The notes beneath the pieces were generated by a model. It saw only the letters and a list, made by a program, of their open reading frames with translations. It was not told the origin of the DNA and did not search any database. A stretch of 45,336 bases of DNA from Phycisphaerales bacterium (GTDB lineage Bacteria; Planctomycetota; Phycisphaerae; Sedimentisphaerales; UBA12454): the NCBI GenBank assembly GCA_003142595.1, contig PLMU01000015.1:1-45336 (forward strand), given 5' to 3'. Positions 11,335 to 37,695 of this stretch are shown in pieces. Each line of letters starts with the position of its first letter. The stretch's first letter is position 1. A program made the position numbers and the translations under genes.

Positions 11335-11341
11335 TTTCTCA

Positions 11342-13125: not shown

Positions 13126-13136
13126 GGATGCACAAA

Positions 13137-13568: not shown

Positions 13569-13571
13569 TCA

Positions 13572-14882: not shown

Positions 14883-14893
14883 AGGAGTACATT

Positions 14894-16331: not shown

Positions 16332-17087
16332 TTAAGACCCCACGCCAAGTAATCTTAGTATTCCATCAAGTATCGTGTAAGGATTGGGCGGGCAGCCGGG
16401 AATATATAAATCTACAGGCACAGAATTATCCGCACCGTTTGTTTGCTCCGGATGGCCGGAATATATTCCACCTGAAATCGCACAAGCCCCTGCCGCAATC
16501 ACAATTTTTGGCGATGGCACCGCATCATAAGTCTTCTTCAATGCGAGTTTCATATTCGTTGTTACAGGACCTGTTATAAAAAGCCCGTCAGCATGTCTTG
16601 GTGAAGCGACAAATTGTACGCCGAACCTTCCTAAATCGTAGGCAAGAGTCGATAATACGTTAGTATCCGCCTCGCAGGCATTACATCCGCCGGCACTGAC
16701 CTGTCTTAATTTTAAAGACCTGCCAAAGATTTTCAGCATATCGGCTTTTAAACTTTCTGCCGATTTAAATTCCTGACTTTTCAAAAGCAAATCTTCTCTT
16801 TTTCCTGCGGCTAAACTATATTCACGGCTAAATATAATAGTTTTATTCTGACAAACCTGCTCGCATTTGCCGCAAAAAATGCACCTGCCCATATCCAGTT
16901 CAATCTTATTGCCATTGGCAATAATCGCATCGGTCGGACAAATGGATATGCACTTTTTACAATCGTTGCATTTAGAATCAGAAATAACCGGTCTTCCCTT
17001 AAACCTTTCAGGAAGAGAAGGTTTCTTTTTGGGAAACGGATATGTTCTATATCCCTGCTTAATTCGAGCGACAAATGCTTTTAACAT
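16332..17087 (-). CDS. hyfI: Ehr complex small subunit fused to a two-cluster ferredoxin (HyfH/HyfI-like)
   Basis: This 251-aa fusion has an N-terminal ferredoxin with two 4Fe-4S sites (Cys 40, 43, 46, 50 and 69, 72, 75, 79) joined to a NuoB/HycG-type small subunit. The latter holds the proximal cluster ligands GGCNAC (135, 138), GAC (202) and PGC (232). In most hyf/hyc operons these are separate genes. It would carry electrons from a soluble donor toward the large subunit. ATG 17087 is chosen over 17105 because GAGG is well spaced and MLKAFVARIKQGYRTYPFP is the family's usual start. It is the last gene of the operon. Confidence 0.88.
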   Translation of the reverse strand: MLKAFVARIKQGYRTYPFPKKKPSLPERFKGRPVISDSKCNDCKKCISICPTDAIIANGNKIELDMGRCIFCGKCEQVCQNKTIIFSREYSLAAGKREDLLLKSQEFKSAESLKADMLKIFGRSLKLRQVSAGGCNACEADTNVLSTLAYDLGRFGVQFVASPRHADGLFITGPVTTNMKLALKKTYDAVPSPKIVIAAGACAISGGIYSGHPEQTNGADNSVPVDLYIPGCPPNPYTILDGILRLLGVGS

Positions 17088-17094
17088 AAAAACC

Positions 17095-18555: not shown

Positions 18556-20030
18556 CAGTTGCCTCCAACCAGCATGCAAATGTCGTGCAGAAAATTTCTA
18601 AACGTAGAAGGGATGAATAATCCTAATACTAAAATCAGCAATATCATAATAGCAGGAGGGACTACGGATAAAAATCTTTGTTTTAAGGCAACCTTCTCAA
18701 TCCCCTGCTCCGGACTGCCCTGTGTCATCCTGATACAAATTGTCGCGAAACCAATGAAAACTATAACAAGCAAAACAAGATAAGCACCAGAAACGAAAAA
18801 CCTGCCCTGCTCGATACCGGCCTTGAGAATCGTAAATTCACTGATAAACGTTCCGAAAGGAGGAAAACCTGTGATTGATAATATGCCTGCCAGCCACAAA
18901 AAAGCTGAAATAGGAATCACTTTAAACATTCCCTGGACATCATTCGTCCTTTTGGTTTTATAGACCGCTAAAATATTTCCCGCGACTAAAAATAACGCCG
19001 CTTTTGTCAGAGAATGATTTACAAGATGAAGCATAGAACCGAAAACAGCCGCTTTTCCAAGTCCCAAACCAATCGCGACAATTCCCATATGCTCGACACT
19101 CGAATAGGCAAGCATTCTTTTATAATCAGCCTGTCTTATTATATAAACGGCCGCAACCAGCATCGAAACCAGTCCTAACGCGATGAGCAAATCACCGGCA
19201 AAATCACCAAGGCCCGCAGCCGTACAAACCTGAAATGTCCTGAAAATCCCCAAGAAAGCACAATTGAGCATAGCGCCGGAAAGAAGCGAAGATATAACGG
19301 AAGGCGCCTCGCTGTGAGCGTCCGGCAACCAGGTATGCATAGGAGCAAGTCCCATTTTTGTTCCATAGCCGACAAGAATGAATATAAATGCCGCTTTGAG
19401 CCATTTGACATTCAATACGTTTGCGTATTTTACAAGTTCGCCCGCGAGCAGCGACACAGGTTTTTCTCCGCCGGTTGACGCAGCCACCGCAAGAAAGAAA
19501 TTACCCAAAAGTGCGATAGCTATACCAACCGAACAAATCATCAGGTATTTCCACGTCGCCTCAAGTGAGCGATGATGCCGATGAAAATAAATCAACGGAG
19601 CGCTGGTCAGCGTGGTCAGTTCAATCGCGACCCAAATCAATCCAAAATGCTGACTTAACGCAAGAAACGTCATCGACGCCAGAAGAAAAAGCATACAACA
19701 AATAAAAATCGCTTCAGGAACATTCGAAAATATAATATCTTCCTGAAAATCTTTTATTTGCTGATGTTTTTCATTCTTAAGATAACTAATCGCGTAAAAA
19801 CCGGCTCCAAGAAAAAGGCCGCTGGTAATGCTTAAAATAAGCTGCCCGATTCGGTCAAGTCCGAGCCAGTTATTGAATAAAGCCGCAGGCGGGAAAAACC
19901 AGAATGAACAAGTTAAAATAAAATGTAATACAGCCGCAGTGCCCAGCAGGAAATATCTCAGGCTGGCATTTCTGCTAACCAAAGATAAAACACCCGCCAA
20001 AAACGGTATAAATATCAATGCCAATAACAC
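18555..20030 (-). CDS. hyfF: Proton-pumping antiporter-like subunit (HyfF-like)
   Basis: This 491-aa polytopic membrane protein is of the NuoL/M/N-MrpD family. It contains the conserved pump core MGLAPMHTWLPDAHSEAPS with the helix 7-8 lysine region, and ALTKAALFLVAGNILAVY and ITGFPPFGTFISEF further on. It is one of two antiporter-type modules of the complex, likely translocating H+ or Na+. It starts with GTG 20030 behind AGGAG, one base after the hyfE stop. The long C-terminal lateral helix of NuoL is absent, as expected for HyfF. Confidence 0.88.
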   Translation of the reverse strand: MLLALIFIPFLAGVLSLVSRNASLRYFLLGTAAVLHFILTCSFWFFPPAALFNNWLGLDRIGQLILSITSGLFLGAGFYAISYLKNEKHQQIKDFQEDIIFSNVPEAIFICCMLFLLASMTFLALSQHFGLIWVAIELTTLTSAPLIYFHRHHRSLEATWKYLMICSVGIAIALLGNFFLAVAASTGGEKPVSLLAGELVKYANVLNVKWLKAAFIFILVGYGTKMGLAPMHTWLPDAHSEAPSVISSLLSGAMLNCAFLGIFRTFQVCTAAGLGDFAGDLLIALGLVSMLVAAVYIIRQADYKRMLAYSSVEHMGIVAIGLGLGKAAVFGSMLHLVNHSLTKAALFLVAGNILAVYKTKRTNDVQGMFKVIPISAFLWLAGILSITGFPPFGTFISEFTILKAGIEQGRFFVSGAYLVLLVIVFIGFATICIRMTQGSPEQGIEKVALKQRFLSVVPPAIMILLILVLGLFIPSTFRNFLHDICMLVGGN

Positions 20031-20031
20031 G

Positions 20032-20664
20032 CTAACTCCTTAATGTTGAGAGCTGGTCGGTCTCAATATGGTCAAATTCTCTGGAAATATGGAAAATCGT
20101 TATGCCCATAACAAAAACAGCAACAAAAGCATCCAGCAGAACCGCAAGCTCGACAAGCAGCGGCTGTTTTTGCGGCAATATAACTCCGAACATATAAATT
20201 CCATTTTCAAAAATCAAATAACCGATTACCTGAGTCAAAGCCATCTTGCGGGTTATAATCAGATACAATCCGACAAATGCAGTAAATATTGACACCGGCA
20301 AAACTGCCGAGTTTGCCGGGGTAATGGTAAGTGGTAAATTTTTGCTAATCCACCATGAAAGAACTATGGCGCCAAGGCCAATCAGCAGCGACATGCCATA
20401 TCCTACGTAAGGTTTTTTCTCGCGATGTATATTTAACTGACTTAAAGTCCTCAACAGCATCGAAGGGAACAAAATCGCCTTTACGCTAATTGCTATTATC
20501 GAAAAAATCACAAGTTGTATATCGAATTGCCCCCCTGCCACAGGCAAAACCCCTAAAATAATCCCCTGGAAGGCAATAACCTTTATGCAGGTGCTTAGTC
20601 TGCTGGTCGAGAGAATAATCAAATTCACCAAAGTCAGAAAAATCATCATAAATTCAATTAACAT
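20032..20664 (-). CDS. hyfE: Membrane subunit HyfE-like
   Basis: This 210-aa hydrophobic protein has about seven helices. It starts MLIEFMMIFLTLVNLIILS and ends with a charged tail HISREFDHIETD. FENGIYMFG and QPLLVELAVLLDAFVAVFV are the conserved NuoK-like part of HyfE, with its membrane glutamates. The open frame extends upstream to 20889, but ATG 20664 fits the family start and lies two bases after the hyfC stop. It forms part of the membrane ion channel linking the antiporter modules. Confidence 0.85.
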   Translation of the reverse strand: MLIEFMMIFLTLVNLIILSTSRLSTCIKVIAFQGIILGVLPVAGGQFDIQLVIFSIIAISVKAILFPSMLLRTLSQLNIHREKKPYVGYGMSLLIGLGAIVLSWWISKNLPLTITPANSAVLPVSIFTAFVGLYLIITRKMALTQVIGYLIFENGIYMFGVILPQKQPLLVELAVLLDAFVAVFVMGITIFHISREFDHIETDQLSTLRS

Positions 20665-20666
20665 TT

Positions 20667-21587
20667 TTATTTCCTCAAAACAAAAACCATTGCCAGTACC
20701 GCGAAAACCGTCGCAATAAAAATAAAGTGAGGGACAAACAATAATTTCAGCCTCGCTATGCACGACTCTATAATTCCGACTACAACAGAAACGCAAAGCA
20801 CCGCTAAAACGCAAATACCAAGGTTGGGCCAAAAGCCAAAACCGATATCCGGTATCAGCACTCCCGCAAAAAGTGCCGTGAATACCCAAAGTTTTAACGC
20901 AGAAGCGAATACTATAAACGCAAAATCCGGTCCGCTGCTGTCTAATACCATAACCTCATGTATCATTGTCAATTCAAGATGAGTATTGGGGTCGTCAACC
21001 GGAATTCTCGCGTTTTCCGTAAGCAGAACGATTATAAGCGTCGCAGCGACAAATAAAATTATAGAAATATGTGAAAGCCAAAATTTGCTTGTAATAGAAA
21101 CAAGAATTTCTGATAAAGATAATTTCCCTGTTCCGCAGGCAATCGCAGCCAAAGCCAGAAACAACGCAGGTTCAGTTAAAGCGGAAAATTGAGCCTCCCT
21201 GCTTGCCCCCATTCCCTCGAAACTTGAACCTGTATCCAAAGCGGCGATTATCGTAAAAAATCTTATCAGGGCAAATAAATAAATGACCAGGAAAATGTCT
21301 CCATCGAAAAAGATAACCGCTTTGCTGTGTCCCAAAGGAATAAATAATGTAATAAGGAGAATGGCCGATAAGTTAATAATGGGACCTGCCCTGAAAATCC
21401 AGCCGGTAGTTTTGCTGTAAACCACGCCTTTATGGACCAGCTTCCAAAGGTCAAAATATGTTTGAAACAGAGGCTGGCCTTTTCTGCCGGCAAAAAATGC
21501 CTTCGTTCTGTTAATGATTCCGAATAACAGTGGCGACAGAATCAAGGCCAGTATTGGCTGAATTATTCTAATAGATATATTGTCCAT
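20667..21587 (-). CDS. hyfC: NuoH-like membrane anchor (HyfC/HycD-like)
   Basis: The 306-aa membrane protein is a NuoH/HycD homologue. GRKGQPLFQTYFDLWKLVHK near residue 35, FEGMGASREAQFSALTEPAL near 125 and VDDPNTHLELTMIHEVMVLD near 195-215 are the conserved quinone-site or connecting segments with their acidic residues. It couples the peripheral arm (HyfG/HyfI) to the antiporter subunits. It abuts hyfB with no gap. Confidence 0.9.
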   Translation of the reverse strand: MDNISIRIIQPILALILSPLLFGIINRTKAFFAGRKGQPLFQTYFDLWKLVHKGVVYSKTTGWIFRAGPIINLSAILLITLFIPLGHSKAVIFFDGDIFLVIYLFALIRFFTIIAALDTGSSFEGMGASREAQFSALTEPALFLALAAIACGTGKLSLSEILVSITSKFWLSHISIILFVAATLIIVLLTENARIPVDDPNTHLELTMIHEVMVLDSSGPDFAFIVFASALKLWVFTALFAGVLIPDIGFGFWPNLGICVLAVLCVSVVVGIIESCIARLKLLFVPHFIFIATVFAVLAMVFVLRK

Positions 21588-23588
21588 TTATCTTAGTTTC
21601 CAAATAATTAAAGCAATTAAAGTCAGAGCGATATACAAAATATAAAGCTGGATATTTCCGCCCTGTAACCATCTGAGCCTGCCCAGGAGCAGATAAATCA
21701 CTCTAAAAATCGGATTAAATAAATAATCCCGACTCACTTCCGGCGTGGAGCTTTCGAATTGTCCTTCAACCGGAAACAAATCCTTAATAGGCTCAGTTAT
21801 TTTCCTGGTGCGCAAAATCATTTTGAAGGTATCAACAAGAGGCTGAGCAAAAGACGACGCTGTATATTGCATTCTCGCGTCAGGTTTGGCGTAACCGCAA
21901 TCCCATGTTGGAGCGATACTTACTTTTTCAGCAGAAAGCATTTTCTTTCTGATAAACAAAAGAATCGCAATTGCCGCGAAAAGACAAAAAGCCGCGAAAG
22001 ATACTTTTATTAAAATATTGCTTAAAGGCAAAATCTGTGAACTCACAACATCCGGCCCAATTCCCGCAATTTGTGAAATGCACTGCTTTAGCCAATTAAT
22101 CGTAATTGATGAAAACAGACCTATGAATACACATAATGCCGCCAGGATAATCATAGGCACCAGCATTATCATGGATGATTCCTGAACATTCATCGCGTGT
22201 TTGCTCCTCGGCTCACCAAGAAATACTATTCCATATACTTTCGTAAAACACGCAAGAGCAAGTCCGCCGATTAGAGCCAGCGAACCGATTATAATAATTG
22301 ATACTGCCGCAAGGTCCAATTGCTTTGTAATCAGTCCCTTGAATGAACCTGTATAAATCAAAAATTCGCTGATAAAACCATTCAAAGGCGGTATTCCGCA
22401 AATCGCAACAGCTCCGATTAAAAATGTTACGGAAGTTACGAACATATTTTTTCCAAGCCCGCCCAGTTCATCGATTTCTCTTGTGCCAGCGGCACTGACC
22501 ACTGAACCGGCTCCTAAAAATAAAAGCCCTTTGAACAATGCGTGATTTAAAATATGTAAAATTGCCCCGCCGAAACCTAATATGGCCAGGATTTGGCTGC
22601 CTGAGTTTATGCCGACAACGCCCAATCCCAGCCCCATTGTAATAATCCCGATATTTTCAACGCTGTGATATGCAAGGAGTCTTTTTATATCGTGCTGCGC
22701 CAGTGCGAATAAAACTCCGATTACTCCCGATACGGCTCCGACGATTATCAGCAGCCAGCCCCACCATAACGGCGGATTAGGTAAAAATGTCAGCACACGA
22801 ATAATTCCATAAATTCCGGTCTTTATCATTACGCCGCTCATAAGAGCCGATACATGACTTGGCGCAGCCGGATGCGCTTCAGGCAGCCAGATATGAAATG
22901 GAACTAAACCTGCTTTTGTCCCAAAACCTACTAAACTTAAAATAAAAATTATCGATGCCATCGAAGACGGCAGCAGTTTAATTGCTGCAAATTTATCAAA
23001 ATCCAGTGAATTACTTTCTCTGCCAAGTAATATAAACATCACAAGCAAAAACGCGGTCCCTATATGTGTTGCTATCAAATATACTATACCGGCCTGCCTG
23101 ACGTGTTTATGTTCATCTTCGAATGTAACCAGGAAAAAGGAGGCAATTGACATTATTTCCCAGCAAATCAAAAAAAGCATTCCATTTGCCGAGACTACGA
23201 CCATTGCCATTGAAGATATAAGAACATTGAAGAAGAAAATTGCTTTTGCCAATGACTTGTTTTTGTATTCAAGAAGATACCTGCTGCCGTAAATTGCTGT
23301 TATTATTGAAAGAATAAAAATACATAAGAGAAAAAATGCTGATATAGCGTCGATTTCAACAAAAAAAGCTCCAAAGGGTATCGACCATGCTATATATAAA
23401 GATTCTTTCCCGCCAGAAAGCAAAACTTTAATCGCGGGAATTAGTCCCAGGATCGAACCTGAAACTGCGCCAAGTGTACCAACAAGTATAGATAATTTCT
23501 GTTTTCTCCAAAACAGCAGTGACAGTATGCCCCCGAAAAAAATTAAAAAGACACCCACCAGAAATATTTTTATCGAATAATAAAACAT
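21588..23588 (-). CDS. hyfB: Proton-pumping antiporter-like subunit (HyfB-like)
   Basis: This 666-aa polytopic protein has the antiporter core GTKAGLVPFHIWLPEAHPAAPS near residue 220, LLAYHSVENIGIITMGLG, and HILNHALFKGLLFLGAG. A C-terminal extension contains WDCGYAKPDARMQYTASSFAQP, the HyfB/HycC signature. It is the larger of the two pumps. It starts 21 bases after the HTH-EIIA regulator gene, so the regulator is in the same transcript. Confidence 0.9.
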   Translation of the reverse strand: MFYYSIKIFLVGVFLIFFGGILSLLFWRKQKLSILVGTLGAVSGSILGLIPAIKVLLSGGKESLYIAWSIPFGAFFVEIDAISAFFLLCIFILSIITAIYGSRYLLEYKNKSLAKAIFFFNVLISSMAMVVVSANGMLFLICWEIMSIASFFLVTFEDEHKHVRQAGIVYLIATHIGTAFLLVMFILLGRESNSLDFDKFAAIKLLPSSMASIIFILSLVGFGTKAGLVPFHIWLPEAHPAAPSHVSALMSGVMIKTGIYGIIRVLTFLPNPPLWWGWLLIIVGAVSGVIGVLFALAQHDIKRLLAYHSVENIGIITMGLGLGVVGINSGSQILAILGFGGAILHILNHALFKGLLFLGAGSVVSAAGTREIDELGGLGKNMFVTSVTFLIGAVAICGIPPLNGFISEFLIYTGSFKGLITKQLDLAAVSIIIIGSLALIGGLALACFTKVYGIVFLGEPRSKHAMNVQESSMIMLVPMIILAALCVFIGLFSSITINWLKQCISQIAGIGPDVVSSQILPLSNILIKVSFAAFCLFAAIAILLFIRKKMLSAEKVSIAPTWDCGYAKPDARMQYTASSFAQPLVDTFKMILRTRKITEPIKDLFPVEGQFESSTPEVSRDYLFNPIFRVIYLLLGRLRWLQGGNIQLYILYIALTLIALIIWKLR

Positions 23589-23609: not shown

Positions 23610-24299
23610 TTATGGCGTGACGGTTTTTTCAACCTCCGCATCAATCCGTTTTAAATGTTCCAGGATTTCTTCCCTGTTTGCCTGGTTTTTAAGGGCGAGT
23701 TTAAAATTATTATCCCTTAAAGCATATCCTAATTTAGACAATATATTAAGATGAGCCCGCACAGTCGGGCTTACGATTGTAAACAAACAATACACTGGCT
23801 GCGAATCGATAGCCCCGAAATCCACTGGATTTTCGAGGAAACATAAATTTACCATCAGGCCCGGTACATGCAAAACGATTGGGTTGCGAACGTGAGGAAT
23901 CGCGATACCCTCTCCGATACCGGTCGACGCCAATGCCTCTCTTGCCAGAAGAACGTTACAAAGAAATTGTCTGTCAACCTCTTGCGGAAGGTTCATAAGT
24001 TCTACAACACTGCGAATCGCCGATGGCTTGTCTTTCCCGCCGACTCTGTAGTGAATTCCGCCAAGTTTTAGAGCCTCATATAAGCTTTCGGCCGGATTCT
24101 TTTCACTTTCAGGCTCATTAAACAAATCAACTGATACATTGATTTTGTTGGCGGTAGCCCATTCGAGCAATTCAGCACGATTAAAACGGTATTGATTGTT
24201 TACCCTGTAGCCGGGCAGTGAATTATGCTGAACCCATCTGTAAACCGTTTTCTCGCTTACACTTAACAATTCTGCTACGTCTTTTACCCTAAGCTGCAT
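23610..24299 (-). CDS. Excisionase-type HTH fused to a PTS EIIA (PtsN-like) domain
   Basis: Residues 1-50 are a MerR/excisionase-type DNA-binding domain (LRVKDVAELLSVSEKTVYRW, then a YRFNRAELLEWA wing). Residues 75-225 are a PTS EIIA type-2 domain with the phosphorylatable histidine in IAIPH (His136). EIIA-Ntr domains report nitrogen/carbon status through phosphorylation. Fused to DNA-binding they act as regulators, although this type is often uncharacterised. Being the first gene of the Ehr operon, it probably controls that operon or feeds phosphorylation state into it. The 215-base leader upstream holds no obvious gene. Confidence 0.88.
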   Translation of the reverse strand: MQLRVKDVAELLSVSEKTVYRWVQHNSLPGYRVNNQYRFNRAELLEWATANKINVSVDLFNEPESEKNPAESLYEALKLGGIHYRVGGKDKPSAIRSVVELMNLPQEVDRQFLCNVLLAREALASTGIGEGIAIPHVRNPIVLHVPGLMVNLCFLENPVDFGAIDSQPVYCLFTIVSPTVRAHLNILSKLGYALRDNNFKLALKNQANREEILEHLKRIDAEVEKTVTP

Positions 24300-25100: not shown

Positions 25101-26186
25101 TTACTGGGACTGTGAATTCTCCTTGTGTATTGTGTTTCGCAATGCTTGCGGATTATAGGAATTGCAAATAGCAATGTCATAAGTTATTTCTCCCGCCTCG
25201 TACAGTTCCAGCAATGAATCGTCCAAACTGTGCATACCCTGCTTACGACCCAATTGTATGATACTGAGCAATTGATGCAATTCCTTGTCACGAATGTGTT
25301 TTCGTACAGCAGCATTCATGACAAGCAGTTCTGTCGCCAATATTCTATCCTTCTTATTCGCTGAAGGAATAAGTCTTTGAGCCAAAACTCCCTGAAGGCA
25401 GTTCGCCAGTTGAGTAAAAATCTGTGACTGTTGATTTTCAGGAAAAATAGACACAATTCGTTCAACAGTTTGCAGAGTATTAGGTGTATGACAGGTTGCA
25501 ATAACAAGATGTCCTGTCTCTGCAGCTACCAGGGCTGTCTCTGTAGTTTCAAGGTCACGCATTTCTCCGATGCAGATAACGTCAGGATTCTGGCGAAGCA
25601 CATGAATCAATGCGCTGCCAAATGACTTTACATCTGTATGCAGTTCCTGTTGTACGATAATAGATTTTTTCTGTAGGTGCACATATTCTACAGGGTCTTC
25701 GATGGTAATTATTTTACATCGCCGTTCGCTGTTGATCAGGTCCACTATATAGTTTAAAGTCGTCGTTTTTCCGCTTCCCGTAGGCCCCGTTATCAAAATC
25801 AGGCCACCAGCGAGCCTGCTTAAGTCTTCTATTTCTTTAGGCAGCCGCAGATCTTTCCGGCTTTTAATGTGTGATACGACCGGTCTTATGGCCATTTCAG
25901 GATTACCGCCGTGGTAATAAATTGAAATGCGAAATCGGCCTAACTTGGGGTCGTTAAGAGAACAGCAAAGCTGCCAGTCTCGCTCAAAAGTTTTTTTCTG
26001 CTCATCGTTTAAAAGACTGTAACATAATCTTGCCGTATCCTCCCGCTTGAGAGGCGCAATATCGGCCAGAATTATCTCGCCATTTATTCGAAACGTCGGC
26101 GGTAAATTGGCAACAATATGAATATCTGACGCGTTTTCACGACGGGCAAGTGACAATATACGCTGTACTTCTGCTGATACCGGCAT
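25101..26186 (-). CDS. pilT: PilT-like type IV pilus/secretion retraction ATPase
   Basis: The 361-aa GspE/PilT ATPase has an N-terminal PAS-like domain (ASDIHIVANLPPTFRING), Walker A GPTGSGKTT at 134-142, an Asp box TIEDPVEYVH at 161-170, Walker B VICIGEMRD at 203-211 and the His box HLVIATCHTPNT. GEMRD and the lack of an extended N-terminus point to PilT rather than PilB. No pilin, PilC or secretin genes are nearby. It is the last gene of a nine-gene operon around a Ycf46-like AAA ATPase, so it may have been co-opted for something other than twitching. It starts four bases after the TPR gene. Confidence 0.88.
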   Translation of the reverse strand: MPVSAEVQRILSLARRENASDIHIVANLPPTFRINGEIILADIAPLKREDTARLCYSLLNDEQKKTFERDWQLCCSLNDPKLGRFRISIYYHGGNPEMAIRPVVSHIKSRKDLRLPKEIEDLSRLAGGLILITGPTGSGKTTTLNYIVDLINSERRCKIITIEDPVEYVHLQKKSIIVQQELHTDVKSFGSALIHVLRQNPDVICIGEMRDLETTETALVAAETGHLVIATCHTPNTLQTVERIVSIFPENQQSQIFTQLANCLQGVLAQRLIPSANKKDRILATELLVMNAAVRKHIRDKELHQLLSIIQLGRKQGMHSLDDSLLELYEAGEITYDIAICNSYNPQALRNTIHKENSQSQ

Positions 26187-26190
26187 AATT

Positions 26191-26943
26191 TTACCTTCCG
26201 AATAATCTTCTGAAAAATCCGCCTTTGCATTTTGACATAGCCGTCTTGGCTTTTTTCCAGTTCGGCCGAAGTTTTAGACTTTGCTCCAGTGTGGCCCTGG
26301 CCTCAGAATAGCCCAACTCAGCCTGACAACAGCCCAGTTCATACCACGCCAATGCAGATTTAGGAAATATTCTTATCGCTTCATTGAGATGTTCTATCGC
26401 TGCGCTATAACTGCCCTTTTGTCTCAGCAGACGTGCCGCATCCAGCCTGATTATACCAATTTCCTTACCAGCCATACTCACAGCCTTACTGAGACAGCTT
26501 ACCGAGATAGAACTCTTTCTATCAAACATCACCTCAGCTCTTGCAAGCCAGACACGAGACGTTGTATTGTCCTTATTGACCGAAATATCGGAATAGGTTA
26601 CTGCTTTTTCCATCTTTAAGTCGCGACAGCACGCAATAGCCTTGACTGCAAACAATTCAGGCTGCTGGGGAAAAAGTTCCAAAGCCTTGTCCGCCCAGAC
26701 AATTGCCTCATTGCATTCACCCAATTCAATCAACATTAAAGCCTGGCCGAGCCACGCTTCAAAGAATGTCTTGTTTTCTTCAAGCATTCTTGAATAATTC
26801 CGTAATGCCAGTTCAAAATCACCCGCCAGTTGACTTCTTATTGCTTCTTTATAAAAATATGCTGCATCGCGCACAGGTTCGCCCCCGGTAATCTGTCGCT
26901 CCGGACCTGCCTCATCAAATTCGAGCTGAGAAAAACGTGCCAT
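26191..26943 (-). CDS. Tetratricopeptide-repeat protein
   Basis: The 250-aa soluble protein contains about five TPR units, for example AYFYKEAIRSQLAGDFELALRNYSR (residues 28-52), WLGQALMLIELGECNEAIVWADKAL, and SALAWYELGCCQAELGYSEARATLEQSL near the C-terminus, then a basic tail KGGFFRRLFGR. No signal peptide is visible. TPR proteins are scaffolds. Here it lies four bases from each neighbour, between the zinc-ribbon membrane protein and the PilT-like ATPase, so it may bridge them. Confidence 0.85.
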   Translation of the reverse strand: MARFSQLEFDEAGPERQITGGEPVRDAAYFYKEAIRSQLAGDFELALRNYSRMLEENKTFFEAWLGQALMLIELGECNEAIVWADKALELFPQQPELFAVKAIACCRDLKMEKAVTYSDISVNKDNTTSRVWLARAEVMFDRKSSISVSCLSKAVSMAGKEIGIIRLDAARLLRQKGSYSAAIEHLNEAIRIFPKSALAWYELGCCQAELGYSEARATLEQSLKLRPNWKKAKTAMSKCKGGFFRRLFGR

Positions 26944-26947
26944 TAAA

Positions 26948-27964
26948 TTACCTTACAAAACCTCGTCTTGACAGCGGCATCCACCGCATAAAAACCCGCG
27001 ATTGAATATCTTCTGCCTTTCTCACGCAAATCAGATTAATCTGCGTTGATTGAAGAACCATGTTGTGACCTATATTTATATTGTATTGAACGCTTATAAA
27101 ATAATTACGCTCCGGGATTATACCCGAATATTCACTTATCTGCAACCATTGAGGTACAGGATATATATTTGAATCAAGTTTTTGTCCATTAACTATAAAT
27201 ACGCCATCTTTGATGTCTAATTGTTCCCCTGCCAATCCAACAATTTGACCGACAATCAGTTCTCTGCCTGTATATGTCTGCCACATATGAATGCCAAAAT
27301 ATTCGGGATGTATAAAGACCAAATCTCCGCGTTTCAAAGCGGCATTTTGTTTTAAATTTCGCCAGCCCAGCAGATAATCTCCTGCCGCAATTTTTTGATA
27401 AGGAGCACTCATGTTCGAATAACTGCCGGTCAGGTTTGGAATCAAAATTCGCGGGCTGAAACTATAAATAATTGTCAGGGCAATCAAAATTAAAATAACC
27501 ATTACCAGCTTTTTACCTATTTCCAGCTCTTTTAAAATCTTATATTGAACAGAAATTGTAGTATGAATACCGATTGCCAGACCAAGGCAGATAAATCCTG
27601 CCTGACTGCCAAATAAAAATAATCCTGATATGAGTAATACCAGCCAGGCTAAAAAATACCATCGAATCTCTTTGAACCGTTTTTGCGTAAAATGAGCAAG
27701 TCCGGGTATTAAAGAAAGAACCAATCCTATTAAAATATCATCAGTGGCCTGTGCAATCCAGGCCGGACATTTTATTTCAATTCTTTTTAACGGCGCAATT
27801 TCCTTCCGAATGAACCTGAATAGAATACGAATCGGCTTTTTCCATATTGGCATGCGGGGAGGATAAACATCTATCTGTTCAGACTCTCCTTCGAGGATAG
27901 AACCGCATTTTATGCAGGTTTTCTGTCCTGGAATATTTTCAAATTTGCATCTTTCGCATCTCAT
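26948..27964 (-). CDS. Zinc-ribbon membrane protein with a degenerate signal-peptidase (S26) domain
   Basis: The 338-aa protein begins with a zinc ribbon (CERC...CIKC, residues 3-19), has several membrane helices (about 95-175), then an S26-type region. APYQKIAAGDYLLGWRN resembles the box around the catalytic serine, and IVGQIVGLAGEQLDIKDGVFIVNGQ the box that normally reads KRVxGxPGD. The general-base lysine of that box is replaced (VGQ), and the SMxP serine box is irregular (MSAP). Both catalytic residues are thus doubtful, and it may be a binding pseudoenzyme. It is tightly packed between the DUF2997 gene (6 bases) and the TPR gene (4 bases). Confidence 0.7.
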   Translation of the reverse strand: MRCERCKFENIPGQKTCIKCGSILEGESEQIDVYPPRMPIWKKPIRILFRFIRKEIAPLKRIEIKCPAWIAQATDDILIGLVLSLIPGLAHFTQKRFKEIRWYFLAWLVLLISGLFLFGSQAGFICLGLAIGIHTTISVQYKILKELEIGKKLVMVILILIALTIIYSFSPRILIPNLTGSYSNMSAPYQKIAAGDYLLGWRNLKQNAALKRGDLVFIHPEYFGIHMWQTYTGRELIVGQIVGLAGEQLDIKDGVFIVNGQKLDSNIYPVPQWLQISEYSGIIPERNYFISVQYNINIGHNMVLQSTQINLICVRKAEDIQSRVFMRWMPLSRRGFVR

Positions 27965-27970
27965 CGCTGA

Positions 27971-28183
27971 CTATTCATCTATTGCAAGATTCTGTTCAAG
28001 GTCTATCTTCGCCTTAACCTCCGGCTCGTAATGTTCGCTTGTCAATTGCTGATTTTTCACTTTGCCGACAAGCTCTGACAGCCATTTAGCGTACGCAAGG
28101 CAACCTTTACCCTTGACTCCTTTTATATGCACTTTCACTTCGCCGGTTTTGGATATCGTAATATCTACTTCATGCTGTGCCAT
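27971..28183 (-). CDS. DUF2997 family protein
   Basis: The 70-aa protein HEVDITISKTGEVKVHIKGV followed by KGKGCLAYAKWLSELVGKV matches the DUF2997 pattern: a short beta hairpin, a G-x-x-G-x-x-C turn, then a helix. The family's function is unknown. In cyanobacteria and planctomycetes I recall DUF2997 genes next to Ycf35- and Ycf46-like genes, and the same trio is present here with gaps of 3 and 33 bases. It is probably a partner of the AAA ATPase. Confidence 0.75.
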   Translation of the reverse strand: MAQHEVDITISKTGEVKVHIKGVKGKGCLAYAKWLSELVGKVKNQQLTSEHYEPEVKAKIDLEQNLAIDE

Positions 28184-28186
28184 AAT

Positions 28187-28657
28187 TTAATCCACCCATC
28201 TTCTGACATGTATTCGAATGCTCTGGTCATTCGTAACTTCTTCGTTTATCACCTGGAAGTCTTTGCTTTTCAGTTCTCTCATCACCTTGTCATAAATATA
28301 ACACTGTGTTAATTTCTGGCTGAATTGCTCTGCCGTCTGTTTAAGCTCTGCTTCACTATGGCCCTTTCCCTTTGCGCATACAACACATCGCCCATCCTGG
28401 TCGCGCTTTATGCGAATCTCTATATCGCCTTTGGAAACCACAATCTCTTTATCTGCCGTTATACTTGCGGCAATAATTTCACTTTCTGAAAGCTCAACCT
28501 CCACAGTTTTTTCAGATGTTGGCTGGTTCTCTTTGGCCACCTCTTTTACTTTTTCATTGACTATCATCCCCATTGCTGAAGCCGCACCAGCGACTGCTGC
28601 GGTGATTGCCGGCCAACTGGCTATTATTATTGGTGTAAGAACTAATACGGCACTCAT
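28187..28657 (-). CDS. Ycf35-like (DUF1257) protein with N-terminal hydrophobic segment
   Basis: The last 70 residues of this 156-aa protein (SQKLTQCYIYDKVMRELKSK, then DFQVINEEVTND and IRIHVRRW) match the end of Ycf35/DUF1257 proteins, where a YAY...EL segment is followed by a strand ending RRW. Residues 1-30 are hydrophobic and glycine/alanine-rich, which is unlike classic Ycf35 and could anchor it to the membrane. The middle holds two short strands with DIEIRIKRDQDGRCVVCAKG. Function unknown. It lies between the AAA ATPase and DUF2997 genes. Confidence 0.65.
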   Translation of the reverse strand: MSAVLVLTPIIIASWPAITAAVAGAASAMGMIVNEKVKEVAKENQPTSEKTVEVELSESEIIAASITADKEIVVSKGDIEIRIKRDQDGRCVVCAKGKGHSEAELKQTAEQFSQKLTQCYIYDKVMRELKSKDFQVINEEVTNDQSIRIHVRRWVD

Positions 28658-28690
28658 AATTTTTCCTCTCTGCTGAATTACTATAATTTT

Positions 28691-30307
28691 TTATATTTCC
28701 AGTTTACGTTTGCCAGGGCCCGGTTCTTTGGCTATTTCTGCACTGGTAGCCGGTCGTGCCCTGCCTTCGGCCCAGTTGCGCAATTTGTCGATTTCCTCAC
28801 TCATCGTTTTAGACAACGGCACGGTCTGTTTCAAACTCGCCGTTATTCGTTCGGTGCTTAACTTGCCTTTTTCGTAGAAAGCGTCGAACATGGCGCTGAT
28901 TATTGCCTCTTCTATTTCTGCGCCGCTATAACCTACCGATGCCTGTGAAAGGATATCAAGGTCGTAAGTTTCAGGATTCATTTTCCGTTTTAACAAATGA
29001 ACGCGGAATATTTCCTTTCTTTCGATAAATGAGGGTAAGTCCACGAAAAATATTTCATCGAAACGTCCTTTACGCATAAGCTCAGGCGGCAACAGCGAGA
29101 TGTCATTTGCCGTTGCTATCACAAAAACGGGCTTTTTCTTTTCCGACAGCCACGTTAGAAATGTGCCAAAGACACGAGCCGACGTTCCGCCATCCGTACT
29201 GGCTCCGCTGCCGCGGGAGCCGCGAAATGCCTTATCGATTTCATCGACCCAGAAAACTACCGGTGAAACTGATTCTGCGACCTTGATTGCCCTGCGGATA
29301 TTTTCCTCTGAAGAACCGACCAGACTGCCGAATACCTGGCCGACATCAAAACGAAGGAGAGGAAGTCGCCAAATATTACTTATCGCCTTGGCTGTTAAAC
29401 TCTTGCCGCAGCCTTGAACGCCTAGCAGCAGTATGCCTTTTGGCGCCGGCAAACCAAATTCTCTCGCCTGGTCGGAAAAAACGACCGAACGTTTAAGCAG
29501 CCAGCTTTTCAATGCGTCAAGACCACCGACCGTATCGAGTTTCTCCTCTGTATCATAATATTGCAAAATTCCGCTCTTGCGTATAATCTGTTTTTTTTCA
29601 CCGTTTATGACTTCCAGACTTTTTTCTGAAAAACCGTTGTGCTGAACCAGCGTTTTGGCTAAAACATTTTCGCCTTCGGTCAATGTCAGGCCCAGTAGAG
29701 CATGAACTATTTGTTCCCGCATTTTATCATTTATTTTGACGTTCAGCTTGGGGTTTTCTTTTACCTCTTCTATTATCCTGCCTAACAATGCCGCAAAGTC
29801 ATTCTCCTTGGGTAAATCAAAATCAACTACTGTAATATCTTTTTCCAGCTCTGCAGGAATCTCTAACATAGGACTGATAAATACTATCGTCTTGAAAGTA
29901 TTTTTCAGCATAGCCGACAGTTCGCGAAGCCGTCGAAGCACAGACATATTTTGACATTTTAGAAAAGGATGAAAATCCTTGAAAACATAAAGCGCCGGTT
30001 CCATATACTCCATCACGTTTCCAAGGGCAACCAATGGGTCCTGGGTGGCTGTATCCTGATGTTTCTGTGATTGCATCGAGGTTCCTGCAGGGACAAGGCC
30101 TGTGGTAACAGACCATTCAAACACTGTCTTGCCAAGCTTTGCGGCAATCTTTGAAATCCGGGCCAATACACGCTGCTCTTCCCAGCTTATTACGTATATC
30201 AATGGATATCTGGCCCTGATTAAAACCTCTATTTCATTCATTTGTCTTTTGAAACCAGCACTCGTTGGTATCTGCTCTGGCGGTGTACTCTGAATGTTTT
30301 CTGACAT
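28691..30307 (-). CDS. AAA+ ATPase, Ycf46-like
   Basis: The 538-aa protein has an N-terminal half (residues 20-240) resembling an inactive ATPase-like domain with [14 protein letters not shown], then an active AAA+ domain: Walker A GVQGCGKS at 296-303, Walker [10 protein letters not shown] at 350-358, sensor-1 VFVIATAND and an arginine-finger region [13 protein letters not shown]. This two-part layout is that of Ycf46, a chloroplast/cyanobacterial ATPase of poorly known role linked to inorganic-carbon responses. It should remodel a protein partner. With a Ycf35-like and a DUF2997 protein downstream it forms the core of this operon. Confidence 0.85.
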
Positions 30308-30308
30308 T

Positions 30309-30467
30309 TTATTTTTTCTCCGTCTTGTATGAAATTGAGATATTCGGGTCTACCATTTGAGCTATTTTCATAAGCGTCTCATCCGGCGCTATCATTATCA
30401 CCTTGCCGTCCTTCAATATGCGAATCTCAAAATCGCCGGGCTTCCGCTTATATGATTTCTTCTTCAT
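30309..30467 (-). CDS. Small 52-aa protein of the Ycf46-like operon
   Basis: ATG 30467 overlaps the stop of the radical SAM gene (ATGA) and the frame ends one base before the AAA ATPase start. That packing makes it a genuine gene although it is short. It reads MKKKSYKRKPGDFEIRILKD then GKVIMIAPDETLMKIAQMV and a lysine-rich end. A basic N-terminus is followed by a beta hairpin and one helix, a layout loosely like DUF2997. I do not recognise a named family. Confidence 0.78.
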   Translation of the reverse strand: MKKKSYKRKPGDFEIRILKDGKVIMIAPDETLMKIAQMVDPNISISYKTEKK

Positions 30468-31294
30468 TTTATCAGCTTCAGTCCCATTCTCTCTGCCAGA
30501 TTCACCGCCGCCTGCATATCCTCCTGTTTTAAGTATTCTGCAGGTGCCGAACCCGCAGGAATCGGCGGCACATAATTGCCTCGAAGACTCAGCTTCACAT
30601 CAGGAATCTCCGCTGCCAGCCATTCCAAAACCGGCTTAAGACAGCATTGGGTATGGCCGGGCAGGATTAAATATCTTACTATTATATCCGCCTTGCCTGT
30701 GGCTTTTAATATATTTTTCCTGACCACCTCAAGATAACCGCTTACGCCAAGCAGTTTTTCAGCGCAACTATTGTTGCCGCACTTGATATCTGCCAGATAA
30801 ACATCAATTAGACCCGTTATCAATTCATCTACTATATCATTATAAAACATATTGGAGTTCCAGACCACTTTTATTTCCGGCTTTAATCGACCGAGCAGTT
30901 CCAGAATACCGGCCAGGTTCACTGCCGGCTCTCCGCCTAATAGGTTAAGTGTCTTTGCCCCCTGGCGTTGACGCAATGCGATTGTTTTAACCATCTCGTC
31001 AAAATCCATCTCTTTTGCTGCCAGTGGCTGCTGATTCCATTCGGCTACCGCACAATATTCGCATCTTAGATTGCATCCAGTAAAGTAAACCTGATGTGAT
31101 GGGACTAATTCGCTTTCTTCCCCGTAATGCATTACTTCTCGAAAGCATCGAACAGTGTCATCTAATCCGCAATAACCTTTTTGGCCAGCCGTTCGGTCCA
31201 CTCCGCATTGACGCGGACAAAGTTTACAGTTGGCAAGCGACTTTTCTGCCTGCTCTGCTCGTATGAAAGCCTGCTTATGTGCCTTATTATTCAT
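30464..31294 (-). CDS. Radical SAM protein, pyruvate-formate-lyase-activase-like
   Basis: The 276-aa enzyme has an N-terminal CKLCPRQCGVDR motif (residues 21-32), QKGYCG, and the radical SAM cluster motif TGCNLRCEYC (C-x3-C-x2-C) near residues 72-81, then LLGGEPAVN as the SAM-binding GGEP segment. This is the putative PflA-like subgroup (PflX/YjjW-type) found beside diverse partners. There is no glycyl-radical enzyme nearby, so the target is unknown. It could modify a member of this operon. Gap to the rhomboid-like gene is two bases. Confidence 0.88.
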   Translation of the reverse strand: MNNKAHKQAFIRAEQAEKSLANCKLCPRQCGVDRTAGQKGYCGLDDTVRCFREVMHYGEESELVPSHQVYFTGCNLRCEYCAVAEWNQQPLAAKEMDFDEMVKTIALRQRQGAKTLNLLGGEPAVNLAGILELLGRLKPEIKVVWNSNMFYNDIVDELITGLIDVYLADIKCGNNSCAEKLLGVSGYLEVVRKNILKATGKADIIVRYLILPGHTQCCLKPVLEWLAAEIPDVKLSLRGNYVPPIPAGSAPAEYLKQEDMQAAVNLAERMGLKLIK

Positions 31295-31296
31295 TT

Positions 31297-31968
31297 TCAG
31301 TCAATATCAACAAAACCTTTGCCCCTTCTTTGCTCAAGGGGATTTATTATTTTGCCTCTTTTTGAGGCCATTTTAAAACATAGTTTCACATAGAGGTATG
31401 CAACAGGCGCGCCCAAAATATATATTAAATTTATCGGTGTTTTTATATTCATCAGAATCCCTGCTGCTATTAGAATTAAAACCAGGTATCGGGATTCAAC
31501 GGCGCCGAATAATACAAAAAACTTTCTGTCGCGGAAAAGCAGTCCCATAGTTGCGATTAAGCCGTAACTGCACGATGATGCCCCCATTCCGATATAATTA
31601 TTTCCCGTCAGCAGGTTCACACCAACCCATATTAATCCGCATACGACTGTAATAACCAGCCATAACAAAAGAAAAGAGATGGTTCGCCATCGGCCCTCAA
31701 TCATACTGCCCACAAAAAGAACTACCAGGCCGCTGAAAATCGAGTTTATCGTCGAGTCGCTCGCAAACGGATAGGTAACCAGTTGCCAGATTCTACCCCC
31801 CAGAACATTTTTTTCGCTTAACCCTATAAAGTCTGCCGTAAAATGAAACGCAAATGCCGATAACAATATCCCCGCTATTAACAAAATCAATATTATAGTA
31901 ACCGCCGGTGTAAAAAGTTTCGCGGGTGAAGGAAAAACCATTTGTATCTGCCTGTTTACAGTGTCCAT
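31297..31968 (-). CDS. Rhomboid-like membrane protein, probably inactive
   Basis: The protein has about six helices in the rhomboid order: GRIWQLVTYPF near residue 55 (the WR/YPF box), SIFSGLVVLFVGSMIEGRWRT, then GMGASSCSYGLIATM, the GxSx box with its serine. The last-helix HxxGxxxG motif, which supplies the catalytic histidine, reads YILGAPVAYLYV instead. Without histidine it is unlikely to be a protease, and a binding or chaperone role as in iRhom/Derlin-type relatives is plausible. ATG 31968 is used; a TTG at 31974 with AGGA upstream is an alternative. It is the first gene of the operon. Confidence 0.78.
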   Translation of the reverse strand: MDTVNRQIQMVFPSPAKLFTPAVTIILILLIAGILLSAFAFHFTADFIGLSEKNVLGGRIWQLVTYPFASDSTINSIFSGLVVLFVGSMIEGRWRTISFLLLWLVITVVCGLIWVGVNLLTGNNYIGMGASSCSYGLIATMGLLFRDRKFFVLFGAVESRYLVLILIAAGILMNIKTPINLIYILGAPVAYLYVKLCFKMASKRGKIINPLEQRRGKGFVDID

Positions 31969-32108
31969 AATCAACTATTTCCTGATTAGTCGTTGATATG
32001 CATAATGTTACAACATCTATTTCCTTGCCTCATTATAACTTATTATGTAAAATAATCAATAATTCCGCCTTTTTCGGCCTCCGCCGCTTTACTATGTATG
32101 AATAGGAA

Positions 32109-32555
32109 ATGTTTTACGTGATTGAGTTTCACTGCCAAAACTGCGGTCAGAAAATAAAAGTCCCTCCGGTTCACGCCGGAAAAAGGGTAAAATGCCCAAA
32201 ATGTGGCCATTCGCTTATTATTCCAATGATAGAAGGTACCGCCTCCGAAAATAAACCTGATTCTTTGTCATCCGTTCAGGACCTCCGGCTTAAAGAAGTA
32301 CCGCCCTCTAAAATAATTATACCGAATATAATCTTTGAGAATAATGTTCAAGTCGAAACACCGCAGCCGCGAATCACAAAGCCGTTTGAAACCCAAGAGT
32401 TGCCTGTTCGCAAACTGCCTCCGATTCTCGAAATTATCCTCTACCCTGCAAGCTTGTCTGGCTTATTAAACATAGTGATTTTTTGGATGATAGGGATTTT
32501 TTTTAGGCTTACAGGGATTATCCCAATAATACTGGTCAACTGCCATAAATCCTAA
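32109..32555 (+). CDS. Zinc-ribbon protein with C-terminal membrane segment, probably truncated
   Basis: The N-terminus IEFHCQNCGQKIKVPPVHAG, followed by KRVKCPKCGHSLIIP, is a CxxC...CxxC zinc ribbon common in planctomycete membrane proteins. A low-complexity linker follows, then one or two helices from LEIILYPASLSGLLNIVIFW to GIIPIILVN. Relatives usually continue with more helices after such a segment. Here the frame ends at CHKS soon after an eight-T run, so a truncation is suspected. It is divergent from the rhomboid-like operon. Confidence 0.6.
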   Translation: MFYVIEFHCQNCGQKIKVPPVHAGKRVKCPKCGHSLIIPMIEGTASENKPDSLSSVQDLRLKEVPPSKIIIPNIIFENNVQVETPQPRITKPFETQELPVRKLPPILEIILYPASLSGLLNIVIFWMIGIFFRLTGIIPIILVNCHKS

Positions 32556-36314: not shown

Positions 36315-37673
36315 ATGAAACGAATTCTGTTTTCGATGGTGTGTATTTATTTGATATCTGCGGCTTTTGCCAAGGCAGATATATCAGACAAGAATGCTCA
36401 ATTGATTCAAGCATTAAAGAATGGCAACCTGCGGGCTGTTCAGACCGCCCTGGCTAATGGTGCTGATGTCAATGCCAAATTAATAACCAGCACTGGCACA
36501 ACTGCCCTGATGCTGGCGGCGCAGGATGGCCATACGGAAATAGTTAAACTCCTTCTGGAAAAGGGTGCCGATGTAAATGTGAAGACAACCACCGGCATAA
36601 CCGCCCTGTGGATGGCGTCGTTTCAAGGCAATACAGAGATCGTCAAGCTGCTCTTGGAAAAGGGCGCTGATGTAAATGTGAAGAACACCAATAACGGCAC
36701 AACTGCCCTGTGGATGGCGGCGGGGAACGACCATCCAGAAATCGTCAAGCTTCTACTGGAAAAGGGTGCGGAGGTTAACACGAAGACCGACGGCCAAACG
36801 GCACTAATGGATGCGGCACAGAACGGCCGTATGGAAATCGTCAAAATCCTTCTGGGAAAGGGGGCTGACGTCAATGCGAAAAGAACCGACGATGGCGTAA
36901 CAGCCTTGATATTAGCGGCGGGGAAAGGTCATACGGAAGTAGTAAAGCTCCTTCTTGAAAAGGAGGCTGAGGTCAACGTAAAAAGAACCACCGATGGCAC
37001 AACGGCTCTGTGGCTGGCGGCGATGGAGGGGCGTACGGAAGTTGTCAAGCTCCTGCTGGAAAAAGGTGCTGAAGTTAATGCGAGGGCTAGCGGCGTAACG
37101 GCACTGTATGTGGCAACGCAGAACGGGCATACGGAGGTTGTCAAACTCCTTTTGGAAAAGGGCGCCGATGTAAATGTGAAGAAAACCACCGATGGCGTAA
37201 CGCCCCTTATGTGGGCAGCGCAAGAAGGCCATGTGGAGGTCGTCAAGTTATTGCTGGAAAAAGGCGCTGATGTCAATGCGAGTACTGACAACGGCTCAAC
37301 GGCTCTGTGGCAGGCAGCGAACAACGGCCAAACGGAGGTCGTCAAACTCCTTTTGGAAAAGGGCGCGGATGTAAATGCAAAGCACACCGACGGCGTAACC
37401 GCCCTGTTGGCGGCGGCGATGGGCCATACGGAGGTCGTCAAGCTATTGCTGAAAGCAAAGGCCGATGTGAACGCCGCTAATAAAACAAATGGCGTTACTC
37501 CGCTGTTTTTAGCCTCAGTGGGATGTTATACCGAAATCGTCAAGCTGCTGCTAGAGGCCAAGGCCGATGTCAATATCAGGGTGAATGACGGAAACACTCC
37601 CTTGAGCATAGCGAAAAAGAAAGGTCACACAGATATTGTGCAACTGCTTGAAAAAGCCGGTGCAAAGGAATAG
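36315..37673 (+). CDS. Secreted ankyrin-repeat protein, copy 1
   Basis: The 452-aa protein has a signal peptide (ILFSMVCIYLISAAFAKA) and then almost nothing but about 12 ankyrin repeats of 33-34 residues with the consensus GxTALxxAAxxGHTEVVKLLLEKGADVNVK. It ends QLLEKAGAKE. Ankyrin stacks bind proteins. Export suggests a periplasmic or extracellular role, for example in interaction with other cells, but this is inference. AAGGAAAGGG precedes the ATG. A paralogue with the same leader and signal peptide starts 22 bases downstream. Near-identical repeats make internal expansion and contraction likely. Confidence 0.9.
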   Translation: MKRILFSMVCIYLISAAFAKADISDKNAQLIQALKNGNLRAVQTALANGADVNAKLITSTGTTALMLAAQDGHTEIVKLLLEKGADVNVKTTTGITALWMASFQGNTEIVKLLLEKGADVNVKNTNNGTTALWMAAGNDHPEIVKLLLEKGAEVNTKTDGQTALMDAAQNGRMEIVKILLGKGADVNAKRTDDGVTALILAAGKGHTEVVKLLLEKEAEVNVKRTTDGTTALWLAAMEGRTEVVKLLLEKGAEVNARASGVTALYVATQNGHTEVVKLLLEKGADVNVKKTTDGVTPLMWAAQEGHVEVVKLLLEKGADVNASTDNGSTALWQAANNGQTEVVKLLLEKGADVNAKHTDGVTALLAAAMGHTEVVKLLLKAKADVNAANKTNGVTPLFLASVGCYTEIVKLLLEAKADVNIRVNDGNTPLSIAKKKGHTDIVQLLEKAGAKE

Positions 37674-37695
37674 CGTTAAGGAAAGGAAAAATCTT

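Follow-up and report, generated by a model that had tools for sequence, protein, structure and literature searches.

The window analysed here, a 45,336-nucleotide stretch of DNA from a Phycisphaerales bacterium, carries nine minus-strand open reading frames between positions 25101 and 31968, every one of them present in its place. Gene 1 (31297..31968) encodes a rhomboid-family pseudoprotease (PF01694) of 223 aa when read from the ATG at 31968, gene 2 (30464..31294) a radical SAM enzyme (PF04055) of 276 aa with an extra N-terminal Cys cluster, and gene 3 (30309..30467) a 52-aa protein with the pattern GDxEIRIxxDGxxxxxxPDExL. There follow three adjacent genes on the same strand, for a Ycf46-like AAA+ ATPase (gene 4, 28691..30307; 538 aa, PF00004), a DUF1257 (Ycf35) protein with a hydrophobic N-terminal extension (gene 5, 28187..28657; 156 aa, PF06868) and a DUF2997 protein (gene 6, 27971..28183; 70 aa, PF11211). 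Gene 7 (26948..27964; PF10502) specifies a zinc ribbon, membrane segments and an inactive signal-peptidase-like domain, gene 8 (26191..26943) a 250-aa TPR protein matched by TPR_14, TPR_19 and other TPR models, and gene 9 (25101..26186) a PilT-type ATPase of 361 aa that is a dedicated paralogue (TIGR01420). A TTG is present at 31974, upstream of the ATG of gene 1. The rhomboid and radical SAM genes lie 2 nt apart, the radical SAM gene and that for the 52-aa protein overlap by the 4 nt of an ATGA, and the remaining gaps, from the 52-aa gene through pilT, are 1, 33, 3, 6, 4 and 4 nt. The packing of nine genes with small gaps and one ATGA overlap that an earlier note on this DNA had described is thereby borne out on the minus strand, and the family assignments made there are upheld by Pfam and TIGRFAM scores above the cut-offs, the 52-aa protein being the one product for which there was no Pfam match.

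Genes 2–9 are collinear in eight relatives from the window's taxonomic order, seven of which also keep the rhomboid gene. Further afield, the arrangement radical SAM-AAA-DUF1257-DUF2997-gene 7-TPR-PilT is kept at 26 loci in Planctomycetota and Verrucomicrobiota, and a core of AAA-DUF1257-TPR-DUF2997-PilT, usually with gene 7 and without this radical SAM enzyme or the rhomboid, is found in Riflebacteria and other lineages, such that the clusters span at least three bacterial groups; the place of the TPR gene in the order, like that of the DUF2997 gene, is conserved across clusters. (The "Chloroflexi" label of one locus, L133, is doubtful, the same phylum sample also containing the genome of L172.) The earlier note had made its proposal of a coherent multi-gene system depend on the PilT, TPR and radical SAM genes staying beside the AAA trio in other genomes, and all three do so at the 26 loci. 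The flanks of the conserved loci share almost nothing, the largest common flank family occurring at just 3 of 22 loci, and we therefore reject general synteny as the cause of the shared order. Since the gene order recurs at loci with nearly nothing in common in their flanks, the cluster is more than a product of chance, and we regard the existence of a conserved multi-gene system as virtually certain. Each of the rhomboid, the radical SAM enzyme, the 52-aa protein and the S26 domain is missing from some lineages, as is even gene 7; genes 4–6, 8 and 9, as our computations show, are inherited together as one core, which gene 7 nearly always accompanies. We found no description of this nine-gene system in the open-access literature, in keeping with the earlier view of it as undescribed.

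The AAA+ protein scores 99.2 bits against the Pfam AAA model (cut-off 21.2) and carries Walker A, Walker B and RKGRFDE motifs. Specifically, it contains one classical AAA domain, C-terminal (about residues 245–517), with Walker A/B and an arginine finger; the N-terminal region of about 240 aa has no P-loop, the sole P-loop (296–303) lying in the second domain. In an AlphaFold model (pLDDT 82) the previously "unknown" N-terminus (about 17–240) folds as a degenerate D1-like domain, and residues 12–517 align to residues 204–763 (D1–D2) of p97 with Z of about 26–28. Modelling thus predicts a p97-like layout with a dead D1 and a live D2. Cdc48/p97, a double-ring AAA segregase, has P-loops in both D1 and D2 as well as an N-domain. 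Gene 4 shares with it the tandem D1–D2 fold with a live D2, but its D1 has no P-loop, no residues are left for a p97 N-domain, and the protein is bacterial, with about 19–22% identity. The AAA proteins of the operon form a clade of their own (98). The name "Ycf46-like", taken from architecture and from family co-occurrence with DUF1257 and DUF2997, is a weak point. The IetAS anti-phage system was considered and rejected: gene 4 scores 79.1 bits against NF042959, whose curated cut-off is 510, reflecting generic AAA similarity only, and the operon contains no protease gene of the IetS kind.

Ycf46, Ycf35 and DUF2997 are families of wide distribution for which, to our knowledge, no mechanism has been described; the first two are found in algal plastids as well. 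The association of these three families in cyanobacteria, plastids and other bacteria is the one seen here, except that in the operon DUF1257 is extended, the AAA protein belongs to a separate clade, and the cluster also contains TPR, gene 7 and PilT. Gene 5 (31.1 bits against DUF1257, cut-off 22.2) differs at 156 aa from the canonical short DUF1257 of about 126–135 aa with its MSHFT-type start. Its hydrophobic N-terminal extension, which by hydropathy is probably a membrane anchor (the residues have low pLDDT), is found in PilT-containing clusters, whereas clusters consisting of the AAA/DUF1257/DUF2997 trio only, in Omnitrophota, Myxococcota and one Hodarchaeota record, have the short form. 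As a prospective test, a profile of the anchored DUF1257 alone was used to search for further loci; it retrieved 15 new ones, with PilT within about 6 kb at 14. The DUF1257 model has a pLDDT of 70.8 and no PDB match at E < 0.001. Gene 6 scores 51.8 bits against DUF2997 (cut-off 24.1).

Gene 9 scores 150 bits against T2SSE (cut-off 24.9) and 386.9 against the PilT/PilU model TIGR01420 (cut-off 319.1), its nearest PDB entries are PilT, and its family conserves the Walker and catalytic motifs and, in part, the AIRNLIRE region. These likenesses to a PilT/PilU retraction ATPase would suit an accessory of type IV pili (T4P), in which the paralogue serves ordinary pili whose PilC comes from another locus, and the AAA, DUF1257, DUF2997 and gene 7 proteins regulate the motor or recycle pilins after retraction. 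T4P parts are indeed present in all sampled carriers except one: T2SSF and PilT occur in 37 of 37 sampled Planctomycetota, and T2SSF in 17 of 18 carriers outside that phylum. The exception, G444, has PilB-like and prepilin genes, and its missing PilC is therefore probably an assembly gap. The 37 Planctomycetota, however, possess the machinery whether the operon is present or absent, so the presence of T4P is uninformative on that of the operon, and we dropped T4P dependence as its explanation. Moreover, the PilTs of the operon form a single clade (SH-aLRT 97.9) that excludes the T4P PilTs encoded in those genomes, gene 9 is encoded with the AAA genes and not in a pilus locus, none of the operons examined having recognisable pilus-assembly genes next to it, and the operon is absent from most T4P-bearing Planctomycetota. 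We consider a role as a T4P accessory unlikely, though worth keeping in view.

The earlier note had described two degenerate membrane proteases, and both the rhomboid and S26 relatives do lack catalytic residues. Gene 1 scores 26.9 bits against Rhomboid (cut-off 22.6) and 24.1 against DUF1751 (cut-off 22); the TM6 His is missing in 13 of 14 family members, the window having ILGAP at that site, and the rhomboid at L084 is the only one with both Ser and His. Gene 7 matches Peptidase_S26 (29.9 bits, cut-off 22.9) and falls below the signal peptidase I model TIGR02227 (29.7 bits against a cut-off of 47). Catalytic Ser and Lys are both absent from its S26 domain across relatives, and the domain is lost altogether at four loci (L076, L080, L090 and L147). 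Its zinc ribbon has two CxxC pairs (DZR, 15.9 bits, sub-threshold in Pfam), and its membrane segments include a PGLGH motif. The Derlins, which are pseudoproteases, thin the bilayer and recruit Cdc48 (PMC8641752), and in this operon a pseudo-rhomboid adjoins a p97-like AAA protein. One could accordingly envisage quality control of the Derlin–Cdc48 (ERAD) kind, with the pseudo-rhomboid and pseudo-S26 proteins catching faulty membrane proteins, the AAA protein dislocating them and PilT powering or regulating the process with no pilus involved. However, the rhomboid is confined to the window's taxonomic order and a number of other clusters from planctomycetes or Verrucomicrobiota and is an accessory to the system, and the operon offers no partner protease, ubiquitin system, ubiquitin-like tag, E3 or Cdc48 N-domain, which makes this reading fairly improbable.

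Gene 2 scores 59.3 bits against Radical_SAM (cut-off 29.5). The radical SAM CxxxCxxC is present in 33 of 33 relatives and an N-terminal CxxCxxxC..C in 32 of 33; its PDB relatives are weak only (PFL-activating enzyme), and it falls below the model for such an enzyme (TIGR02493, 43.7 bits against a cut-off of 231.75). A literature search on PflX/COG1313 turned up no relevant paper. Were the enzyme to modify the 52-aa or DUF2997 protein, and the other proteins to handle or export the product, the ATGA overlap of genes 2 and 3, the recurrence of differing radical SAM types beside the AAA gene and the cyanobacterial DUF2997-ycf35-fed7 cluster, in which a ferredoxin gene adjoins DUF2997-ycf35 (PMC4284462), would be accounted for. 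We think such peptide or protein maturation decidedly unlikely: no maturase equivalog was matched above cut-off, the PflX-type enzyme is absent from Riflebacteria and several other lineages, with no radical SAM gene at all in the Riflebacteria clusters, L133, L135 or L147 and an unrelated NrdG-type enzyme, in a different operon position, at L172, L217 and L218, and the 52-aa protein is of restricted occurrence, being conserved in all nine clusters of the window's taxonomic order and having divergent forms at L081, L082, L085 and L147. The radical SAM enzyme is thus replaceable, and the system does not revolve around it. The earlier note had pictured a membrane machine in which an ATPase remodels a radical-SAM-modified protein; the multi-gene system stands, and the radical SAM enzyme as a universal part of it does not. 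Because the PflX-type enzyme is missing or replaced, the rhomboid accessory and the S26 domain losable, remodelling of such a modified protein cannot be what the system does universally. Least likely of all is a soluble enzyme activase or stress regulator with PilT and the membrane genes as operon passengers. Its model would be cyanobacterial Ycf46, the operon of which is stress-induced and the inactivation of which reduces the activity of the carbonic anhydrase EcaB (PMC7496141), an effect on CO2 use and not membranes (Jiang et al. 2015, as cited there). Passengers, however, would not hold their order and co-diverge across several phyla, nor would DUF1257 acquire a hydrophobic extension only alongside PilT.

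We tentatively favour a reading of the operon as encoding a machine of the inner membrane that remodels proteins by means of two hexameric motors; its substrate and physical complex are inferred. The AAA hexamer would be tethered to the membrane by DUF1257 and the gene 7 protein; the pseudo-rhomboid and pseudo-S26 proteins may bind, but not cleave, segments of transmembrane or signal-peptide-like character; the client would be pulled or unfolded by the AAA protein as the PilT-type motor powers the dismantling of the client's membrane assembly. The TPR, DUF2997 and 52-aa proteins could serve as scaffold and adaptors, and the radical SAM enzyme could have a modifying or activating role particular to some lineages. 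Inner-membrane proteins are the likeliest clients, possibly those of the type-IV-filament class, which abounds in the operon-carrying genomes (as many as 142 N-methyl prepilin matches in a single genome). In support of this mechanism are the conserved order, the prospective search, the PilT and AAA clades, the retained PilT motifs, the p97-like model, the PilT-linked extension, the pseudoenzymes and the type-IV-filament machinery of the carriers; against it, the ubiquity of T4P in the sampled Planctomycetota leaves the pilus link unsupported, the operon has no PilC-type platform gene, several of its members are lacking in some lineages, the anchor is a hydropathy call, and the effect published for the cyanobacterial relative is on CO2 use. 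The more specific version, in which the p97-like AAA ring and the dedicated PilT-type ATPase are coupled motors and the dead proteases client receptors, making the whole a bacterial functional counterpart of Derlin–Cdc48 dislocation, is possible, if rather doubtful. If both motors do work together, this would be a new type of bacterial membrane-protein remodelling machine, and a membrane-tied Ycf46-type cluster with a private PilT motor is a strong, testable clue to the family's role.

Among the small proteins, kinship of DUF1257 with either DUF2997 or the 52-aa protein was dropped (hhalign probabilities of about 3), and a profile comparison of the 52-aa protein with DUF2997 is only suggestive of their being relatives (hhalign probability 71).

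The minus strand of the window carries nine ORFs between 31968 and 25101, separated by 1–33 nt and with a single ATGA overlap, as the earlier note had described. Its family assignments for eight genes were borne out, since curated Pfam or NCBIfam cut-offs were exceeded by the rhomboid, radical SAM (rSAM), AAA, DUF1257 (Ycf35), DUF2997, S26-like, TPR and PilT families; the 52-aa protein (gene 3) had no match in the Pfam and NCBIfam search. Divergent from the operon is a zinc-ribbon protein gene (32109–32555, plus strand), relatives of which adjoin the operon at loci L058 and L064 and lie near clusters of the AAA-DUF1257-DUF2997 trio at L099 and L100.

A search of 58 relatives with the AAA protein returned eight close orthologues (68–79% identity) in six of the order's families (f1, f2, f3, f4, f6 and f7). 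The distribution is patchy, as just one of six same-genus relatives (genome G001) has an orthologue; many other genomes carry a distant AAA paralogue alone (37–40%), without partner genes. Genes 2–9 occur in identical order and strand at all eight orthologue loci, so that the PilT, TPR and rSAM genes are indeed conserved with the trio, and the rhomboid is present at seven (G001 lacks it). The order rSAM-AAA-DUF1257-DUF2997-gene7-TPR-PilT also occurs in further families of the wider phylum, where some loci are interrupted by contig ends. General synteny is ruled out as the cause, because flanking genes are unshared, the biggest flank family occurring at 3 of 22 loci.

A GTDB genome scan and profile maps showed that Verrucomicrobiota carry the same cluster (L118, L120, L123, L126 and L128), and that a variant, AAA-DUF1257-TPR-DUF2997-gene7-PilT without the PflX-type rSAM or rhomboid, is present at L133, L135 (Riflebacteria), L147 and L172. 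The complete set of seven genes (2 and 4–9) is found at 26 loci including the window, and pairwise distance correlations among their proteins (0.49–0.87, reached by 0 of 500 permutations) show joint inheritance, not interaction. Gene 7 is not detectable in some Riflebacteria (L219–L221; the contig end truncates L222), so that the core, at its smallest, consists of AAA, TPR, DUF2997, PilT and the anchored form of DUF1257.

A single branch (SH-aLRT 97.9) sets all 34 operon PilTs apart from 20 others from carrier genomes, including the G000 PilT at C15, which has a T2SSF gene about 2.4 kb away, and from one outside such a cluster (L140). The operon PilT, which retains Walker A, Walker B and adjacent motifs, is a private version distinct from other PilTs of carrier genomes. 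The AAAs of PilT-containing clusters also group together, in a clade of 50 rows with support 98; the remaining 13 rows have no partner genes within the stretch seen, at least some owing to a contig end or split operon.

Every DUF1257 of PilT-containing clusters (~150–160 aa) bears a hydrophobic N-terminal stretch (MSxVxxLxPxIxxxWPxxxAAV...), a probable membrane anchor. In clusters without PilT (trio-only) DUF1257 is 126–135 aa, starting mostly MSHFT; three (L143, L163 and L174) passed the hydropathy threshold, yet all lack the extension. A prospective search of ~745 genomes in four phylum samples, using the long-form DUF1257 profile alone, found 15 previously unexamined loci, 14 with the operon PilT nearby. 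The exception, L227, has DUF1257-DUF2997-gene7 with neither PilT nor AAA; the AAA of that genome is on a different contig.

Tandem copies occur at several loci: two AAA genes flanking a 64-aa protein that resembles the 52-aa protein, followed by the PilT core (L147, 1–6209, plus strand); two DUF1257 genes within an otherwise complete nine-gene operon (L059, 5034–6005, plus strand); and several Ycf46-like AAA genes in genome G051, at L010 (contig C189) and at L069 (contig C577), where DUF1257 and DUF2997 sit between AAA copies. In an archaeal Hodarchaeota record (L166, 929–5105), Mre11-like and Rad50-like genes directly follow a DUF1257-DUF2997-AAA trio.

Residues 12–517 of an AlphaFold model of the AAA protein (46 sequences, pLDDT 82.3) superpose on p97/Cdc48, matching its D1-D2 tandem with a VIA-align Z of ~26–28 over 392–476 aligned residues. 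The overall rmsd of 8–12 Å is an effect of domain placement; D2 alone aligns over ~250–266 residues at 2.4–2.8 Å. Together with the lack of a P-loop in the first domain, this superposition makes the modelled protein look like a double-ring AAA whose first ring is dead.

The suggestion of two degenerate membrane proteases held. The TM6 His is absent from 13 of 14 rhomboid members; the sole member with both Ser and His, at L084, may be active, judging by these residues. In gene 7 the Ser and Lys of signal peptidase are absent from all members, and at L076, L080, L090 and L147 the entire S26 domain has been lost. What is conserved in gene 7 is the membrane region, which contains a PGLGH motif and usually comes with a zinc ribbon, although the first verrucomicrobial loci to be examined have no zinc ribbon. 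In Omnitrophota and Myxococcota, trio-only clusters place a separate zinc-ribbon gene between AAA and DUF1257; its product has a hydrophobic C-terminus, and it may be the equivalent of gene 7.

The PflX-type rSAM has CxxxCxxC in 33 of 33 cases. At L172, L217 and L218 an NrdG-like Fer4_12 rSAM separates DUF2997 from gene 7, and one also stands ahead of a trio-only AAA in Elusimicrobia (L146); Riflebacteria clusters have no rSAM. In cyanobacteria, DUF2997-ycf35 is accompanied by a ferredoxin gene (PMC4284462). An Fe-S partner that keeps recurring yet can be exchanged for another is consistent with an auxiliary role in modification or redox chemistry.

We infer that a membrane-tethered p97-like remodeller and the private PilT-type motor would act together on inner-membrane proteins, physical contact, the client and any pilus connection being putative. 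Type IV pilus machinery is present in all sampled Planctomycetota, with or without the operon. Derlin-Cdc48 (PMC8641752) offers an analogy for a possible working mode, not for membership. The association of the trio is already known; a search of the open-access literature found no description of a cluster of this kind, and a two-motor machine, if it is one, would be categorically new.

Elsewhere in the window, a Hydrogenase-4/complex-I-like operon (16332–23588, minus strand) encodes a large-subunit-like protein ending in FPLCNKSFNLSYCGHDL, not the NiFe-ligand DPCxxC motif, and, going by the sequence, may specify a hydrogenase-related (Ehr-type) complex. Immediately before it is a fusion of an excisionase-type DNA-binding domain and a PTS IIA-like domain (23610–24299, minus strand), a homologue of which lies near the AAA paralogue at L066. 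On the plus strand, 9787–15328 holds a gene pair resembling indolepyruvate ferredoxin oxidoreductase, together with phenylacetate-CoA ligase-like and ACT-domain-like genes (two of each), in a repeat arrangement, and 36315–39627 encodes two neighbouring ankyrin-repeat proteins, 452 and 663 aa long, whose repeats closely resemble each other.
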